In this document: piece after piece, positions 16,822 to 24,153 of the stretch
Position numbering within the stretch: position 1 is the first letter of the stretch
Layout of the letters: every line of letters begins with the position of its first letter
Source of the DNA: Fibrobacter sp. UWB5
GTDB taxonomy: Bacteria; Fibrobacterota; Fibrobacteria; Fibrobacterales; Fibrobacteraceae
NCBI RefSeq assembly: GCF_002210295.1
Contig: NZ_MWQH01000003.1
Coordinates: 1-64,000 of the forward strand
DNA: 64,000 bases
Direction: 5' to 3'
The notes under the pieces: model-generated
What the model saw: only the letters and a program-made list of their open reading frames with translations
What the model was told of the DNA's origin: nothing
Databases searched by the model: none
Program-made: the position numbers and the translations under genes

Positions 16822-16829
16822 AAAAATAA

Positions 16830-16856
16830 AGAGCCGCTTTTTGTAAAAGCGGCTCT
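16830..16856 (-). terminator. Rho-independent terminator after the beta-helix/barrel gene
   Basis: Perfect 12-bp arms AGAGCCGCTTTT / AAAAGCGGCTCT with a 3-base loop, T-rich on the minus-strand side. It lies 22 bases past the stop of the 16879-19995 gene and separates it from the FAD-protein unit. Confidence 0.85.
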
Positions 16857-16878
16857 CTTTAAACAATGTTAGATGTTT

Positions 16879-19800
16879 TTAGAATACGTAGTTCACGCGG
16901 ATGCCGGCGTAAATATCCTTGTATTCGTCGCTCAAATTGTCCGGACGATAGTAAAGGGCCGTGCCCGTGTACCAATCGGTGCTCAGACGCTTGGTGTGGT
17001 TCACGCGCAGATTCACGTTGCCCAACACATCCGTTTCGGTTTCGTCTTCGCTAATGCCGTCTTCTTCCCAGTCAATGGTCATATAACGAAGTTCTCCAGA
17101 AAGGCCCAGAACCAAGAAACGCTTCAGGAACGAAATTTCAAGTTCGTCGTTGACCGTAAATTCGCGTTCGGTCATGTCGTTGCGTTCGTAGTTCTTGAAA
17201 CGCGGCGTAAATCCGAAGCGGTTCTGCACGCGCTTCAGAGTCGTCGTTGCGGAGAGCGGATAGGCGTGTTCAAAGTAGTCTGCACCGCCAAAGTAGTAAC
17301 CCAGCTTGGCCCAAGTGGTGTTGGAAAGATCCATGCCGCTAATCAAGGCGTCCTTGTAGAACTTGGAATCGTCGCTACGGAGAATCCAACGGCCGCCAGC
17401 CTTGAAGATGGTGCTGAAGCCGCGAACCGTCAAGTCCAAAGCCCAAGTGTTCTTGTAGATTCTTTCCTGGAATTTAGAGGCGAGATAGTCTTCGTCGGAC
17501 AGATTCATGTATTCGGCCCAGCGAGCGGAATCCAACACGGCGGTTATTTCGCCGTCAACGATTTCGGTCGTAGTTCTGCCCTGGCGAGGTGCAAACCATC
17601 CGTCTTTATAAATTCCGTCTTTCAGAATGGGGTCGACGTGGATTTGGTTGGGGCGGTATTGCGTGCGGTATTCCAGATTGTAACCGACACTCACGTCTAC
17701 GTTCTTGCCAATCTTGAAGTCGTTGCCCAAAGACCAGTTCTGAATGTACTTGGTTCTGCCGTAATCCAGTTCGTGTTCTTCGAACCACTTGGAATCGCTG
17801 TCGTTGAAGAGACCCCAGCGGGTTCCTTCGCCAAGGCCAAGCAGGTTTGTCTTGTCTCCATTGGCGGCGTTTTCGATATTGAGCAAGTAGCCAAAGTTGA
17901 GAGTCCAGAACTTGGTGATGATTTGTTCGATGTTGCCGCCGAATTCACGCGTGTCGGAGAGCTGGTCCGGAGATCCGGCGCTGTAGTAGTCTTCGCCCAC
18001 GTATTTCAAGTGGCCCGAAATCGTGGTCTTGTAAATGTTCCAGAAGAGCGAGGCTCCGATGGCGAAATTCTGGCTGCCCCAGTTGAGGCCGAGAACGCGG
18101 TCATCATCGCGGTCGCTGTCGTATTCCTTTTTCAGGCTCTTGGCTTCGCGAATGAGGGTGCGCAAGGAATCGCGCATTTCGCTGCGGTTAAGCGTCGTGT
18201 TGCCTCCGAAGATTTCTTCGAGTTGGGCAGACGAAAGCGAATTGATCTTGTTTTCGTTGGCCATGAGCTGGCGGAGCATTGTCATCGATGCTGTGTTGAT
18301 TCCGGCTTCGGTAAACACCTTGTTGATGGCGCGTTCCCTGTAAACGTCTGCGGTGTCGGCGCGGCCGACGGCAATCTGACCGTTCAGTTCGATGTCGCCG
18401 GGGTAGAACAACCAGTTTCCATCGGCGAATACGGTAAAGGACTTTTGCAAGGGTTCGCTTGTAATGGAACTGCTGCTTCCGCCATCGCGTAACAGCGGGT
18501 CGTGAATTTCGTCGTCGGCATAAATGGCGCCAATAGTTGCATCAAAACGGCGCAGCGGAGACCACTTGATAGATCCGCCGTAAGCAAGGCGCTGTGCCTG
18601 TGCTTCGCCCTCGTCAATGTAATTCTTGTAGATGTAGGGGTGGCGTTCGCCAATCAAGTAGGGCTTGCGGTTTTCGCCGAAGAATCCGCTCAATTCCAGC
18701 AAAGGCTGGTTCACGTTGTTCCTGAGGAGCGAAAGCGTGTAGCCCGCACCGAAGAGGGGGAGGCTTGCCATGTAGGTTTCGCCGGCGGTCTTGGTAAAGT
18801 CGCCCAAGATAAGCTTGTTGTAGCTGTCGGTGTAAGTCAAGGTAACCGGGGTCGGAGAGAATTGGTTCCACTGGTCGCCGGTATAGTCGCCATTGAATTC
18901 AATGGACTTGCCGTCCGGAGACTGCATCAACAAGTAAACGCTTGCTTCGGTACCGAATCCGGGAACCTGGAAAATGTTCTGGTAGCGATCTCCGTTATGG
19001 TCTTTGCGCATAAGGACTTTGTGGTAGTAGTTGTTTACCATCACGCTACCCATGACGCTCCAGGCCTTCGGGGCTTTGGCGTCTTCCTCTTCTTCTTTTT
19101 GGGCGAGCAGGTCGCCAATTTTATCGTTTGCGTTGACGGCGCGGCTTTCGACGCCCGGAATTTCAGGGCTTGCGGGCAGGGCCTGTGCAACGCCGTCGTA
19201 ATCCTTGTTAAAGTCGGTCTCGTTTCCGTTAATGCTTTCGATAACGTCCTTTTCAAGAACGTCACCGGCGCTTGCGCCCACGGCGTTCTTGCTGACTTGG
19301 GTGTTGTCAAAGGTCAATTGGCTGTTGCCCATGTCCAAAACGGCGTAGGAGTTGTTTTCGAAGTTGGAAGATTGAACGTTCGTAATGGCGAGCTGAGCGT
19401 TGTAAAGGGCGACCTTGTTGCCGTCGAACTTCACGTCGCTGATATTCATGTCGCTGTAGCTGTCGGTATGGACTGCAGCACCGTCATTCTTTTCGAAAAG
19501 GCATCCGCTGATAGAAACTTTCGAGTTTTTGGCGTAGACGCCACGGCTCGAAGTGTTCGCAATCTTGCTGGATTGAATGGTCGCGGAACTATTTTCGACT
19601 GCGATACCATTTTCTGCGCCGCTAATATTGGCGTTTCTGATTTCGGACTGTTCTTTACCGGTAATAAAGATGCCTTTCCAGCTGCCGTTCTTGGAATCGC
19701 TTGCTGCCGAGACGAATTCGACCTCGCTTTCGCTTGTACCGGCGACGACAAACTGTCCCTTGACATAAAGGCCGGTGCCTGGAGCAAACTGCAACTTGAC

Positions 19801-19995
19801 TCCCGGTTCAATCACGAGCACTTGGTTTTCTTCGACAGTCAGGTTTTCTGTTACCAGATACGGGGACTGTTCTACCCTGATAAATCCGTGAACGTTGCCG
19901 CTGAGCGGGGTGCCTTGAACTGGGGTTGCCGGTTCTTGGGCGTAAGCCAGAGCGGTGGTCAGGGCGATAATCGAAAAAAGAGAAATGTTTTTCAT
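16879..19995 (-). CDS. Exported right-handed beta-helix protein with C-terminal outer-membrane barrel
   Basis: 1038 residues. Signal peptide MKNISLFSIIALTTALAYAQ. Residues about 30-260 look like a parallel beta-helix: short Asn/Ser/Gly-rich repeats such as IAVENSSATIQSSKI, VYAKNSKVSISGCLF and LYNAQLAITNVQSSNF. A charged linker (QKEEEEDAKAPK) leads into about 720 residues of alternating aromatic/polar strands typical of a large outer-membrane barrel. The protein ends in YAGIRVNYVF; a terminal phenylalanine is the usual signal for barrel insertion. It overlaps the upstream FecR-domain gene by one base (TAATG), so the two are made together. I do not recognise a named family. It may be a surface-exposed barrel with a passenger-like helix at its N-terminus. 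Confidence 0.8.
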   Translation of the reverse strand: MKNISLFSIIALTTALAYAQEPATPVQGTPLSGNVHGFIRVEQSPYLVTENLTVEENQVLVIEPGVKLQFAPGTGLYVKGQFVVAGTSESEVEFVSAASDSKNGSWKGIFITGKEQSEIRNANISGAENGIAVENSSATIQSSKIANTSSRGVYAKNSKVSISGCLFEKNDGAAVHTDSYSDMNISDVKFDGNKVALYNAQLAITNVQSSNFENNSYAVLDMGNSQLTFDNTQVSKNAVGASAGDVLEKDVIESINGNETDFNKDYDGVAQALPASPEIPGVESRAVNANDKIGDLLAQKEEEEDAKAPKAWSVMGSVMVNNYYHKVLMRKDHNGDRYQNIFQVPGFGTEASVYLLMQSPDGKSIEFNGDYTGDQWNQFSPTPVTLTYTDSYNKLILGDFTKTAGETYMASLPLFGAGYTLSLLRNNVNQPLLELSGFFGENRKPYLIGERHPYIYKNYIDEGEAQAQRLAYGGSIKWSPLRRFDATIGAIYADDEIHDPLLRDGGSSSSITSEPLQKSFTVFADGNWLFYPGDIELNGQIAVGRADTADVYRERAINKVFTEAGINTASMTMLRQLMANENKINSLSSAQLEEIFGGNTTLNRSEMRDSLRTLIREAKSLKKEYDSDRDDDRVLGLNWGSQNFAIGASLFWNIYKTTISGHLKYVGEDYYSAGSPDQLSDTREFGGNIEQIITKFWTLNFGYLLNIENAANGDKTNLLGLGEGTRWGLFNDSDSKWFEEHELDYGRTKYIQNWSLGNDFKIGKNVDVSVGYNLEYRTQYRPNQIHVDPILKDGIYKDGWFAPRQGRTTTEIVDGEITAVLDSARWAEYMNLSDEDYLASKFQERIYKNTWALDLTVRGFSTIFKAGGRWILRSDDSKFYKDALISGMDLSNTTWAKLGYYFGGADYFEHAYPLSATTTLKRVQNRFGFTPRFKNYERNDMTEREFTVNDELEISFLKRFLVLGLSGELRYMTIDWEEDGISEDETETDVLGNVNLRVNHTKRLSTDWYTGTALYYRPDNLSDEYKDIYAGIRVNYVF

Positions 19996-21890
19996 TATTT
20001 GACCTTGTATGGCTTAGATTCAGTAAGAATTTCACCGCTCTTCAGGGTGACGGTAATTTTGACTGTGGTTGTAGTTCCGTACGGTAGTGCAATCTGCTGG
20101 TCAATCCGGTTCGACTGTAAGTCTGTGCCACGGAGCTGGATGTTTTGGTCGGGCAGGGTAATGTCAATCTGCTTGATGTATGTCGGATCGTTTTGGGGAA
20201 GGTTCTTGACCGAGAACGAAAGCTGTTTATGGATCTTGCTGTTGACACTTTTGGGTGGGGGTGGCACGAACAAACGTTCCTCTTCTTTGCCACCGTCAAT
20301 GACAATCTTTGCTTTTCTGATGGGCGGGTAACAATCCAGTTTCTGGGTCAAATCAACTTTGTTGCCTGCGAGATCTTCGACATGGAACTTGTACACGTGG
20401 GTGCCGCTAGTCAGGTTTTCGTAGAACTTGCGGTCGCTGTCAAAGTAGATTTCTTTTTGGGCGACGTTATCGATGTACAGCGTGTAAATCGCCTTGTCTC
20501 CGTTGGTCTGGCCTAACGCGAGAGCGGCCTTGCACTGGTTGGGGTAAAGTGCGAGCGTTGGCGGAATCAGGTTCACGGTCTTGCATGACTTAACTACCCT
20601 GATGGGAACATTTATGTCCTTGTAGCCTTTTTGAGATTCGAAATTCAGGTGGAGCGTATTTTCGTTCCAGTTGCCGTTCTTGTCGGATACGGCGATGGAG
20701 TGCGTAAAGCGGCCGTTTGCGCTGAGGGGGACGAGGTTTTTCGAGGTGTGTTTGCCGAGCGAAACGGTAAGGACTGCGTTCTGGTCGGTGGTGTCGAATA
20801 CGCCTTCAATGGTAACCATGGCAGGGTCACATACTTCGATCGGCATGCTGGTTGTAACGGTTAATAGGGCCTGGTCGTCTGCAACGGTAGTGTCGCTTGT
20901 GCCTGCGAAATAGGTGGTTACGAGACCGCACTGAATTGTGTTGGTGGAGTCGCCATCATAGAAGCAGGTGAAAGGAATTTTCTTTTGACCGATAGTGCTG
21001 GGCGCCCATTCGACGGCCAACTGGATGGCGCTACCATCGGAGCGCTCCGGTTCGCCGAAAATACGGATGTGGGTGCCTTCGGAGCAGGTGGCCGTGATGG
21101 TCTGCTTGGCAGAATAAACGATATCGGGGAGGGGGTCGATATGGCAATCGATTTTAGACCTTAATTCCTTCTGCTTTTCGGAAATTTCCTTGTTAGCCTT
21201 TTCCGCGGCCTTGCGGATAGCGTCTGCAGAAAGGGTGGTGTCGGTTAAAACGGAGTCAAGAGCCTTGAAGAGTTCGTTGTTTCCGGAAGATTCCAGGTCG
21301 ATGATGATAGGATTGTCTTTGCAGAGAATAATTGTCTGGCCGCCGGTGATGGCTTGGGTCGTTTTTGTCGTACTGATTTCAAAGCTCAGGTTACCTGTTG
21401 AAAGAGAGGCGATTTCGCATTTACTGACTTTGCCGACAAATCCGTCTGTACCGCGGATAGCAGCGGTGGCGATACCGGTCTTGAACTTGAATTTGCTCTT
21501 GCCGTTTGCCTGCTTCTGCACATCGAACTTCATGCTGCCGCGCTTGACTTCGGTAATGAAGTTGTTTTCGCCGTCTTCAAACGAGAGTTCCGTAATCGCG
21601 ACAACGGTGTTTTCTTGAACGTTGAACGAACTTCCGTCGGGGAGCGCGATAATCACTTCGGATTCCAGAAGGGTCTCGATATCGTCGCCTTTTTTGACGG
21701 TTTTAGCTTTTTTGAGCTTATTCTTTTCTGGATCGGAACTTTTGATGACCTGTACGTTGCCACTGCGGTGCAGGAATACTTCACCTACGGCGTAGTGGAC
21801 CTTGCCGGATTGAGCCTTTGCGGCGAAAGAAACCCCGACAAGGAGTACTAGAAGGGTAGCTAAAAGCCTAAAAGAGCGATAAAAAGACAT
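19995..21890 (-). CDS. Exported FecR-domain protein with Ig-like repeats
   Basis: 631 residues. The signal peptide is cleaved near AKAQ (27). A FecR-type domain follows (about 30-170): GDDIETLLESEVIIALPDG, SSFNVQENTVVAI and RGSMKFDVQ, then KFKTGIATAAIRGTD. The rest (about 250-520) resembles repeated bacterial Ig-like sheets ending in a proline-rich segment (FVPPPPKSV, about 550) and a last beta domain. There is no cytoplasmic anti-sigma part or membrane anchor other than the signal peptide, so it is not a FecR sigma regulator. FecR domains of this exported type occur in surface proteins. It is the first gene of a two-gene unit with the beta-helix/barrel protein. A TATATTTA box lies about 30 bases upstream. 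Confidence 0.8.
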   Translation of the reverse strand: MSFYRSFRLLATLLVLLVGVSFAAKAQSGKVHYAVGEVFLHRSGNVQVIKSSDPEKNKLKKAKTVKKGDDIETLLESEVIIALPDGSSFNVQENTVVAITELSFEDGENNFITEVKRGSMKFDVQKQANGKSKFKFKTGIATAAIRGTDGFVGKVSKCEIASLSTGNLSFEISTTKTTQAITGGQTIILCKDNPIIIDLESSGNNELFKALDSVLTDTTLSADAIRKAAEKANKEISEKQKELRSKIDCHIDPLPDIVYSAKQTITATCSEGTHIRIFGEPERSDGSAIQLAVEWAPSTIGQKKIPFTCFYDGDSTNTIQCGLVTTYFAGTSDTTVADDQALLTVTTSMPIEVCDPAMVTIEGVFDTTDQNAVLTVSLGKHTSKNLVPLSANGRFTHSIAVSDKNGNWNENTLHLNFESQKGYKDINVPIRVVKSCKTVNLIPPTLALYPNQCKAALALGQTNGDKAIYTLYIDNVAQKEIYFDSDRKFYENLTSGTHVYKFHVEDLAGNKVDLTQKLDCYPPIRKAKIVIDGGKEEERLFVPPPPKSVNSKIHKQLSFSVKNLPQNDPTYIKQIDITLPDQNIQLRGTDLQSNRIDQQIALPYGTTTTVKITVTLKSGEILTESKPYKVK

Positions 21891-22037: not shown

Positions 22038-22322
22038 ATGGAAGTTGAAGAACTGACCGTTGCCTATAGCGATGAAGATACCGGTGAAGAAGTCATCAAG
22101 GAAATCGGCAAGGAAATCCTCTCGAAGGGGGCATGGCCGACCGTGATGTTCTTTTACCAGGAACGTGACCCGAAGTCCGGTGAATTTACCGAACCCAAGG
22201 TGTCGTTGCGCCGCTACCGCAAGATGGCGGGCAATTTCAAGCCCCAGGGCAAGTTCAAGATTACGGGCAAGGCCCAGGCTGAAGCTATCATTGACGTCCT
22301 CAAGAAGTGGTATAACATTTAA
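22038..22322 (+). CDS. Small protein with PC4-like ssDNA-binding pattern
   Basis: 94 residues. I do not know a named family with certainty. Residues about 34-92 read WPTVMFFYQERD, then KVSLRRYRKMAGNFKPQGKF, then a helix KAQAEAIIDVLKKWY. This strand-strand-strand-helix order, with R-x-Y and a K-x-x-G-K-F-x-I-T turn, resembles the PC4/YdbC single-stranded DNA-binding fold. The stop TAA overlaps the ybeY ATG (TAATG at 22320-22324), so it is the first gene of a coupled trio with ybeY and a CorC-like gene. The gene is well supported. The PC4 assignment is inference. Confidence 0.8.
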   Translation: MEVEELTVAYSDEDTGEEVIKEIGKEILSKGAWPTVMFFYQERDPKSGEFTEPKVSLRRYRKMAGNFKPQGKFKITGKAQAEAIIDVLKKWYNI

Positions 22323-22804
22323 TGCCTGACCCTGCTAGTCGAAAGAAGAAGTATAATATCGAGTTCCTTTGCGAGGGGGACATCGAGGCTTTTCCGTATA
22401 AGGACAAGTTCGAAAAGATGGCTCGCAAGCTCCTTGCCGAAGAAGGCAAGGAAAAAGACGTGAATATCGTGCTCTGCACCGACGAGTTCGTGCGCACCAT
22501 GAACCGCGACTACCGCGGTCTCGACAAGGTGACGGACGTTCTTTCCTTTGAATGGAAGAACGAGCTCGGTGTCGAAATTCCTGAAGACGAGGCCATGCTC
22601 GGCGAAATCTATATCGCCCGCGAGCAGGTGCGCCGCCAGGCTCCCGAATACGGCAACACGTTCTACGCCGAAATGAAACGCGTGATTGTACACGGGCTGT
22701 TGCACCTTTCGGGCTACGACCACATCAAGGCCGCCGACCGCAAGGTCATGCGCAAGCGCGAATGCGAATTCCTGGGACTTGACCCGTACAAGGAAGGTGC
22801 CTAA
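22322..22804 (+). CDS. ybeY: Endoribonuclease YbeY (16S rRNA maturation)
   Basis: 160 residues, the family length. It contains the metal site HGLLHLSGYDH with His124, His128 and His134, and the preceding conserved TDVLSFEW segment. YbeY is a zinc-dependent endoribonuclease involved in 16S rRNA 3'-end maturation and ribosome quality control. It starts by TAATG overlap with the PC4-like gene and ends by TAATG overlap with the CorC-like gene. Confidence 0.97.
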   Translation: MPDPASRKKKYNIEFLCEGDIEAFPYKDKFEKMARKLLAEEGKEKDVNIVLCTDEFVRTMNRDYRGLDKVTDVLSFEWKNELGVEIPEDEAMLGEIYIAREQVRRQAPEYGNTFYAEMKRVIVHGLLHLSGYDHIKAADRKVMRKRECEFLGLDPYKEGA

Positions 22805-24153
22805 TGGAATCTTCTGAAAGTTACGCTGTCGCGTTCCTGGTCGTTTTTGTTCTGACATCGTTCTCGTTTTCGCTGATCAAGGCCGCTTTTAGCGCCATTT
22901 ATGCCAAGCGCGATGCCCGTGACCGTGAAGGCCGCGAAGAGGTAGTTGCCTCGTTGGTGGAACTGCCGGGCTTTAACGAAACGATTTCGATCGGTCGCAT
23001 CTTCTGTAACGTGGGTGCGGGCGTTTTGGGCTTTTACCTGTTCCAGATGATTCCTTGGAACTGGGTGCAAGATTACTGGTTCCTGGCTTTTGCCGCTTAC
23101 CTGGTGGTCGCATGCATCGGCATTTACACGATTACGGTGTTCTTGGCAAACCTGCTCGGGAACTTGAAGCCGGACACTTTCGCTGTCGTGCTGATTCCGC
23201 TGTTCAAGTTCATTCGACTCCCGTTTGCACTGCCGGCAAAGATTTGCCACTTGCTGTTCGTCAAGATTCTGAAGGGCTTGGGCTACGATTCCAAGCTGAG
23301 CTTCTTGCCCGAAGAACGCCGCGACGCCGTGCAGGCGCAGGCCGACTTGAACGACGAAGAAGATTCCGATGGTGAAGGCCTGGAACAAGAAGAACGCCAG
23401 ATGATTCTGAACATCTTCGACTTCGTGGAAACCCCGGTGCGTGAAATCATGACGCCGCGTGTGGATATGTGCGCGGTCGAAGTCGGCACTCCCCTCGAAG
23501 AACTGGTGAAGGTCTTGAATACCGAACGCCATTCCCGTTTGCCGGTGTACAAGGAAACTGTCGATAACATCGTGGGTATCCTTTCGAATCGCGACTTCTT
23601 GGAATGGTATACTGAACACCGCGACGAACCCTTTGATATCATGAAGCTCGTGATGCCACCGGTATTCGTGCCGTATCACAAGAAGATTGACGACATGCTC
23701 ACCGAACTTCGCAAGACGGGTAACCAGCTCGCTATCGTAGTCGATGAATATGGCGGAACCGCTGGCCTTGTCACGCTTGAAGATATTCTCGAAGAAATCG
23801 TGGGCGAAATCAAGGACGAAGACGACGTGGACGAAGATGAAGATGTGCAGCGCCTCAAGGACGGGCGATTCATCCTCGATCCGGTTATTACGCTTTCCGA
23901 TTTGGAATACAAGCTTGGCGTAGAACTCGAAGCTCCCGAAAATTCCCACGTGGAAACGCTTTCGGGCCTGATTCAGGCGACGCTTGGCATTATTCCGTCA
24001 CCGGGTGCAGAAGTCACCATCAAGGGCTACACCTTCCGCGTGCTCAAGATGGACGGTACCCGTATGGAAAAGGTGCTCATGATCCAGCCTGGCAAGGGCA
24101 AGACCAAGAACGTCAAGGCCGTGCCCCGTACACAGGCGTTCAAGGTGGTTTAG
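22804..24153 (+). CDS. CNNM/CBS-domain membrane protein (CorC/HlyC family)
   Basis: 449 residues. Residues about 8-190 form the CNNM transmembrane domain with three or four helices. Two CBS domains follow (about 205-325; REIMTPRVDMCAVE, then VEYGG-like VVDEYGGTAGLVTLEDILEEIVGEI), then a C-terminal CorC_HlyC domain (about 350-430). Members are linked to Mg2+/Co2+ efflux or resistance; the older name haemolysin is historical. In many bacteria a CorC-like gene follows ybeY, as here, with a one-base TAATG overlap. A terminator follows. Confidence 0.93.
   Translation: MESSESYAVAFLVVFVLTSFSFSLIKAAFSAIYAKRDARDREGREEVVASLVELPGFNETISIGRIFCNVGAGVLGFYLFQMIPWNWVQDYWFLAFAAYLVVACIGIYTITVFLANLLGNLKPDTFAVVLIPLFKFIRLPFALPAKICHLLFVKILKGLGYDSKLSFLPEERRDAVQAQADLNDEEDSDGEGLEQEERQMILNIFDFVETPVREIMTPRVDMCAVEVGTPLEELVKVLNTERHSRLPVYKETVDNIVGILSNRDFLEWYTEHRDEPFDIMKLVMPPVFVPYHKKIDDMLTELRKTGNQLAIVVDEYGGTAGLVTLEDILEEIVGEIKDEDDVDEDEDVQRLKDGRFILDPVITLSDLEYKLGVELEAPENSHVETLSGLIQATLGIIPSPGAEVTIKGYTFRVLKMDGTRMEKVLMIQPGKGKTKNVKAVPRTQAFKVV

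Follow-up and report, generated by a model that had tools for sequence, protein, structure and literature searches.

A conserved FecR-Ig protein and large-barrel protein pair in Fibrobacterota as a candidate dedicated outer-membrane complex

Organization of the locus

The window analyzed here, a stretch of 64,000 nucleotides from Fibrobacter sp. UWB5 (contig NZ_MWQH01000003.1), contains two coupled genes on the minus strand. Gene 1 (19995..21890) encodes P0002, an exported FecR-Ig protein of 631 aa, as defined by its ORF, Pfam matches, an AF2 model and the conservation of the pair. Gene 2 (16879..19995), assigned from its ORF, Pfam and AF2, encodes P0001, a protein of 1038 aa that combines a beta-helix with a predicted outer-membrane barrel. 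The stop codon of gene 1 and the start codon of gene 2 overlap in the sequence TAATG (19993..19997, minus strand), and a strong intrinsic terminator, a 14-pair hairpin with a T-run, lies 3' of gene 2 on the same strand (16828..16858). The initial annotation, made from the sequence alone, had described two exported proteins with this overlap and a single terminator, which agrees with what we found. Its further remark that it knew of no named system with such a pair is also supported: apart from the FecR domain, each named family considered was ruled out by at least one defining feature.

The divergent ybeY and CBS-domain (CorC-like) genes (22322..24153, plus strand) are conserved neighbors of the locus outside the pair. 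A small conserved gene (22038-22322), also divergent from the FecR/barrel pair, precedes ybeY, and comparable small genes are present upstream of ybeY in relatives. The same TAATG overlap joins this small gene to ybeY, so the overlap itself is nothing special; what goes beyond chance is the conservation of the gene 1/gene 2 coupling, not TAATG as such. According to the ORF list and Pfam, the neighbors of the pair in the window are ybeY, CorC, an oxidoreductase and RluA, and an NCBIfam scan found a TIGR02171 protein encoded near the pair. The nearest named relative in a contig scan was Fibrobacter succinogenes isolate RUG10152, with 93% identity.

The FecR-Ig protein

All features of P0002 are encoded on the minus strand. 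A Sec-type signal peptide lacking a lipobox was read from the sequence at about residues 1-26 (21813..21890). It is followed by the FecR domain (residues 29-200, 21291..21806), for which the PF04773 match covers residues 69-152 and scores 41.9 bits (cut-off 24), the boundaries being taken from the AF2 model. The model, which like that of P0001 was computed from a 67-row alignment, has a mean pLDDT of 86. It shows a helix leading from the FecR domain to the Ig chain (residues 205-246, 21153..21278) and four beta-sandwiches: three Ig-like modules (residues 249-332, 341-433 and 440-520; 20331..21146) and a C-terminal Ig-like domain, here called CT (residues 521-631, 19998..20330), which was also delineated by HMM searches. 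An exported FecR domain with Ig-like modules and no cytoplasmic anti-sigma part, as initially annotated, is therefore what PF04773, the model and the sequence support. Foldseek searches with the protein returned generic Ig chains only.

The number of Ig modules varies between conserved ends. Protein length ranges from 448 to 706 aa in Fibrobacteraceae and reaches 964 aa at locus L047 in a distant family, and an alignment of the paralogues showed that Ig1 is absent from the FecR protein of a second pair in the same genome. At E ≤ 1, the only two FecR-domain proteins of this genome are those of the two pairs.

The beta-helix/barrel protein

P0001 also starts with a Sec-type signal lacking a lipobox, as judged from the sequence. 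A right-handed parallel beta-helix occupies residues 28-243 (19267..19914, minus strand, as are the other features of this protein) and is identified by PF13229 (54 bits against a cut-off of 25.9) and the AF2 model. The model (mean pLDDT 86) continues with a linker (residues 244-312, 19060..19266) that includes a helix at 293-306, and with a barrel (residues 313-1038, 16882..19059) ending in a Phe that is invariant in 25 homologues from across the phylum. The C-terminal region is thus predicted as a barrel and not as something else, and the beta-helix followed by a probable outer-membrane barrel that had been proposed from the sequence is recovered. The barrel region has no counterpart among Pfam or NCBIfam families. 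Strands 11 and 12 are separated on the outer side by a helical insert (residues 549-634, 18094..18351; AF2 and alignment) that is mostly missing in distant families.

We count 26 strands from the DSSP assignment, the Foldseek matches and the loop pattern. This number is our reading of the model rather than tool output: DSSP gives 25 long strands, and 26 is reached if a short strand near 912-919 is taken as membrane-spanning. With 26 strands, the loops alternate between long and short over most of the chain, and the C-terminal Phe falls on the periplasmic end. On the basis of the model, the barrel is predicted to reside in the outer membrane, and because the strand count is even, the beta-helix would lie on the periplasmic side. 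In Foldseek searches against the PDB, the solved structure with the best TM-score was MtrB (6r2q_B, TMt 0.55); SlpA, FimD, BtuB and LptD were also among the matches, all of which are loose and of low identity. The outer loops are as conserved as the strands (58.5% and 58.3% identity, respectively), with almost no indels.

The barrel-domain tree indicates that the beta-helix was lost twice, in one clade at the ybeY locus and in one at the second locus, with the FecR partner retained both times; in a third lineage it is partly eroded. Because the pair outlasts the beta-helix, sequence comparison indicates that the barrel and the FecR protein form the core of the system. These losses also bear on an autotransporter-like arrangement, in which the barrel would display the beta-helix at the surface and the FecR protein would be an accessory. 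The order of signal, beta-helix and barrel ending in Phe resembles such a design, but a classical (type Va) autotransporter was rejected since there is no PF03797 match and the barrel has about 26 strands rather than 12. With a beta-helix that is dispensable and probably periplasmic, and hence not an autotransporter passenger, we consider this arrangement highly improbable. The earlier proposal of a surface attachment or secretion pair is supported in part: the pair is a real and dedicated one with a predicted outer-membrane barrel, which may, as proposed, display or export the FecR protein.

Some related proteins differ in the N-terminal part. The barrels at L047 and L071 carry an additional domain ahead of the beta-helix, which looks TolB/LpoB-like by eye and has no Pfam or PDB sequence match. 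A small, exported, stand-alone beta-helix protein of about 240-260 aa (L003:1474-2202; L068:6035-6751; L069:584-1303) is a relative of the P0001 beta-helix and sits in a conserved gene cluster.

Conservation of the pair

At all 66 Fibrobacteraceae loci with an upstream gene on the contig, the FecR gene is located directly upstream of the barrel gene in the same orientation; when starts are set at the first possible codon, the two are spaced by -17 to 0 nt. Orthologues are thus not separated, in agreement with the conserved co-occurrence and order that would be expected for a coupled pair. The FecR-barrel order recurs at the ybeY/CorC locus in distant families of the phylum, usually within 130 nt, with L071 as an exception in which the barrel gene is not adjacent to a FecR gene. 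In distant families an exported protein of 430-460 aa ending in AEKKEKKT and lacking a Pfam match is encoded downstream of the barrel (L046:3384-4676, also L044, L048, L054 and L074).

Profile searches of 151 genomes of the phylum found both barrel and CT in 89, only the barrel in 5, only CT in 1 and neither in 56 (barrel in 94/151, CT in 90/151), counts that refer to related genomes and not to independent events. The barrel-only genomes include G002 (locus L047), where the adjacent FecR gene encodes a CT too diverged to score, G131 (L041), where the contig starts at the barrel, and G005, which carries the L071 exception. In the CT-only genome, G116, the neighboring endonuclease IV gene is missing too, and an assembly gap is the likely cause of the missing barrel. 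A contig scan with family-level patterns gave matches in Fibrobacterota only, and a plasmid search returned generic beta-helices only. The UWB5 genome itself contains a second, divergent pair (G000:C9, L035) with a barrel that is 40% identical. This pair (L035:12285-15773) adjoins a SUI1-like gene and an MFS-acyltransferase-AMP-ligase fusion gene (LplT-Aas-like). The pair is ancient and has been inherited jointly across much of the phylum. The barrel is absent from the complete single-contig genome G033 of genus g4, and the pair is therefore non-essential for life in that family.

Such a distribution could in principle arise if the two were envelope proteins co-expressed without any contact and their operon were retained for dosage or regulation only. 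Stop/start overlaps are common in the genome, as seen with the small gene and ybeY, the L071 barrel stands apart from a FecR gene, and lone FecR proteins exist. On the other hand, Fibrobacter retains the pairing at two loci, the pairing persists through much of the phylum, and CT and barrel are jointly absent from the 56 genomes mentioned above. An arrangement without contact is thus considered unlikely.

The CT domain

No Pfam or NCBIfam family covers CT. Its profile matches barrel-adjacent FecR proteins throughout the phylum, with the domain detected in all of those fetched except the one at L047, and also matches two unpaired FecR families. Motif comparison identified a PPPP motif typical of barrel-paired CT domains (residues 543-546, 20253..20264, minus strand). 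The PxP/PPPP motif is kept in 62 of 67 Fibrobacteraceae pairs and is absent from all six unpaired FecR proteins examined. Because the motif occurs mostly in paired and not in unpaired proteins, sequence comparison suggests that CT is the part that docks on the barrel. At five ybeY loci of genus g4, the FecR protein stops near residue 520, lacking CT, and there is no barrel downstream; this loss of CT and barrel was probably a single event. Mirror-tree analysis of rate covariation between CT and the barrel gave a moderate partial rank correlation of 0.47 at the second locus and a weak one of 0.09 at the ybeY locus, where Ig2 scored higher and CT did not stand out.

Of the unpaired families, one comprises FecR proteins that are about 510 aa long, have a CT-like domain and lack a barrel gene beside them (L056:5461-6990, L057:6179-7705, L058:6457-8013). 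In several Fibrobacter genomes they are encoded near secA and parA/parB, and they are possible extra clients. The other consists of lipoproteins in which the CT-like domain is followed by a conserved tail (L064:6614-8143, L066:5998-7575, L069:5083-6615).

Proposed function

Little is understood about the cell surface of Fibrobacter, a main cellulose degrader in the herbivore gut. The pairing and co-inheritance across much of the phylum point to one envelope complex, and some physical association of the two proteins is probable. A dedicated complex with CT as the docking part is favored by gene adjacency, the co-distribution of barrel and CT, their joint loss in g4, the PxP motif in paired CT domains and the survival of barrel and FecR partner where the beta-helix was lost. 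Against it stand the weak CT-barrel covariation at the ybeY locus with its higher score for Ig2, the fact that the g4 loss probably counts as one event, the separate L071 barrel and the two FecR families that have CT-like domains without an adjacent barrel.

The reading that we tentatively prefer is a dedicated outer-membrane complex. A 26-strand barrel enclosing a wide lumen, joined in most species to a periplasmic beta-helix, would receive CT on or in it, while the Sec-exported rod, built from the FecR domain, a variable set of Ig modules and CT, would most likely be anchored and displayed or exported. The barrel would thereby hold the rod and let it reach the cell surface, as a display or export pair with one client. 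The computation directly supports the pairing, its coupling, the architecture, the co-distribution and the dispensability of the beta-helix, whereas outer-membrane location, contact and CT docking are inferred and the direction of the rod, to the surface or within the periplasm, only weakly so. The weak similarity of the FecR domain to Lsa33/LipL45 and the LapA retention module also speaks for this reading. Rod length that varies between conserved ends favors a surface stalk over a periplasmic bridge of fixed width, whereas strongly conserved outer loops are unusual for a merely surface-exposed anchor and favor a specific role in transport or binding.

These loops are consistent with a second model that ranks close behind and that we regard as possible: the barrel would serve as a channel or transporter in the outer membrane, with a specific substrate or binding task, and the FecR protein would remain periplasmic as its plug or scaffold, in the way LptE serves LptD, perhaps connecting the barrel with peptidoglycan or other components of the envelope. 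In strand number and in its periplasmic N-terminal domain, the barrel protein resembles LptD and MtrB, barrels that have a partner in the lumen, and the related FecR-CT family of L064, L066 and L069 consists of lipoproteins. However, the long rod of variable length exceeds what a plug needs, and Pfam and NCBIfam scans found no peptidoglycan-binding domain.

Within the preferred complex, a more specific and rather doubtful version is an undescribed form of export in which the barrel recognizes CT of its co-encoded partner and places this single client on the surface. The pair would then be a minimal counterpart of the type IX secretion system (T9SS) or two-partner secretion, related to neither, with the unpaired FecR-CT proteins as additional clients; further clients are predicted if CT is a docking or export signal. 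We found no description of the pair in the open-access literature, where absence is no proof of novelty. A pair that is spread through a phylum, with a barrel outside Pfam and NCBIfam, is a defined target for work on outer-membrane building or surface display.

Comparison with known systems

Several known systems share single features with the pair. A FecR-domain protein encoded beside an outer-membrane barrel recalls FecR/FecA signaling, but a FecR anti-sigma regulator was rejected because the protein has no cytoplasmic anti-sigma part, only an N-terminal cleavable-type signal, and no adjacent sigma factor; a TonB-dependent receptor was rejected since Pfam found neither a plug nor a TonB-dependent barrel. 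The FecR domain is weakly similar to the LapA retention module and to Lsa33/LipL45 of Leptospira, which also have a FecR domain in an envelope protein. The score for the LapA-type module (NF033682) was 25.4 bits against 50, and a distant homologue reached 58.6 bits with Lsa33, the curated cut-offs for Lsa33 and LipL45 being far higher (420 and 350 bits). Lsa33 and LipL45 are lipoproteins and are not known to have a paired barrel.

In two-partner secretion (FhaB/FhaC), too, the gene of a substrate-like protein precedes that of the barrel, which there has 16 strands instead of 26. This system was rejected because Pfam searches with both proteins found no POTRA, no Omp85/ShlB match and no N-terminal TPS domain. 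The link between a C-terminal Ig-like domain and a very large barrel is reminiscent of T9SS cargo and SprA, although here the barrel gene adjoins the partner gene. Scans of the whole FecR protein and of CT alone gave no TIGR04183 or TIGR04131 match, so that T9SS cargo was rejected and the T9SS dependence considered in the initial annotation is not indicated.

The closest structural parallels are two-protein assemblies with 26-strand barrels. LptD carries a beta-rich periplasmic domain at its N-terminus and has LptE as its dedicated partner (PMC4353691), and P0001 is predicted to show the same combination of barrel, periplasmic-side beta domain and partner of its own. In contrast, the partner here is a long Ig rod and the pair is dispensable in relatives. 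An LptD identity was rejected because the barrel protein matches neither PF04453 nor PF19838; PF04453 is absent from the genome, whereas PF19838 (LptD_2) is present elsewhere as a separate protein, and hhalign gave a probability of 1.2% between the barrel and this LptD, i.e., no sequence relation. MtrB, the best solved match of the barrel by TM-score, is made with its partner MtrA seated inside (PMC7198977). An MtrB/PioB identity was rejected since there is no MtrB_PioB Pfam match and the FecR partner lacks a CXXCH heme motif. Although a member of none of these families, the pair would by analogy work most like two-protein outer-membrane assemblies such as LptD/LptE and MtrA/MtrB, or like a one-client secretion pair.
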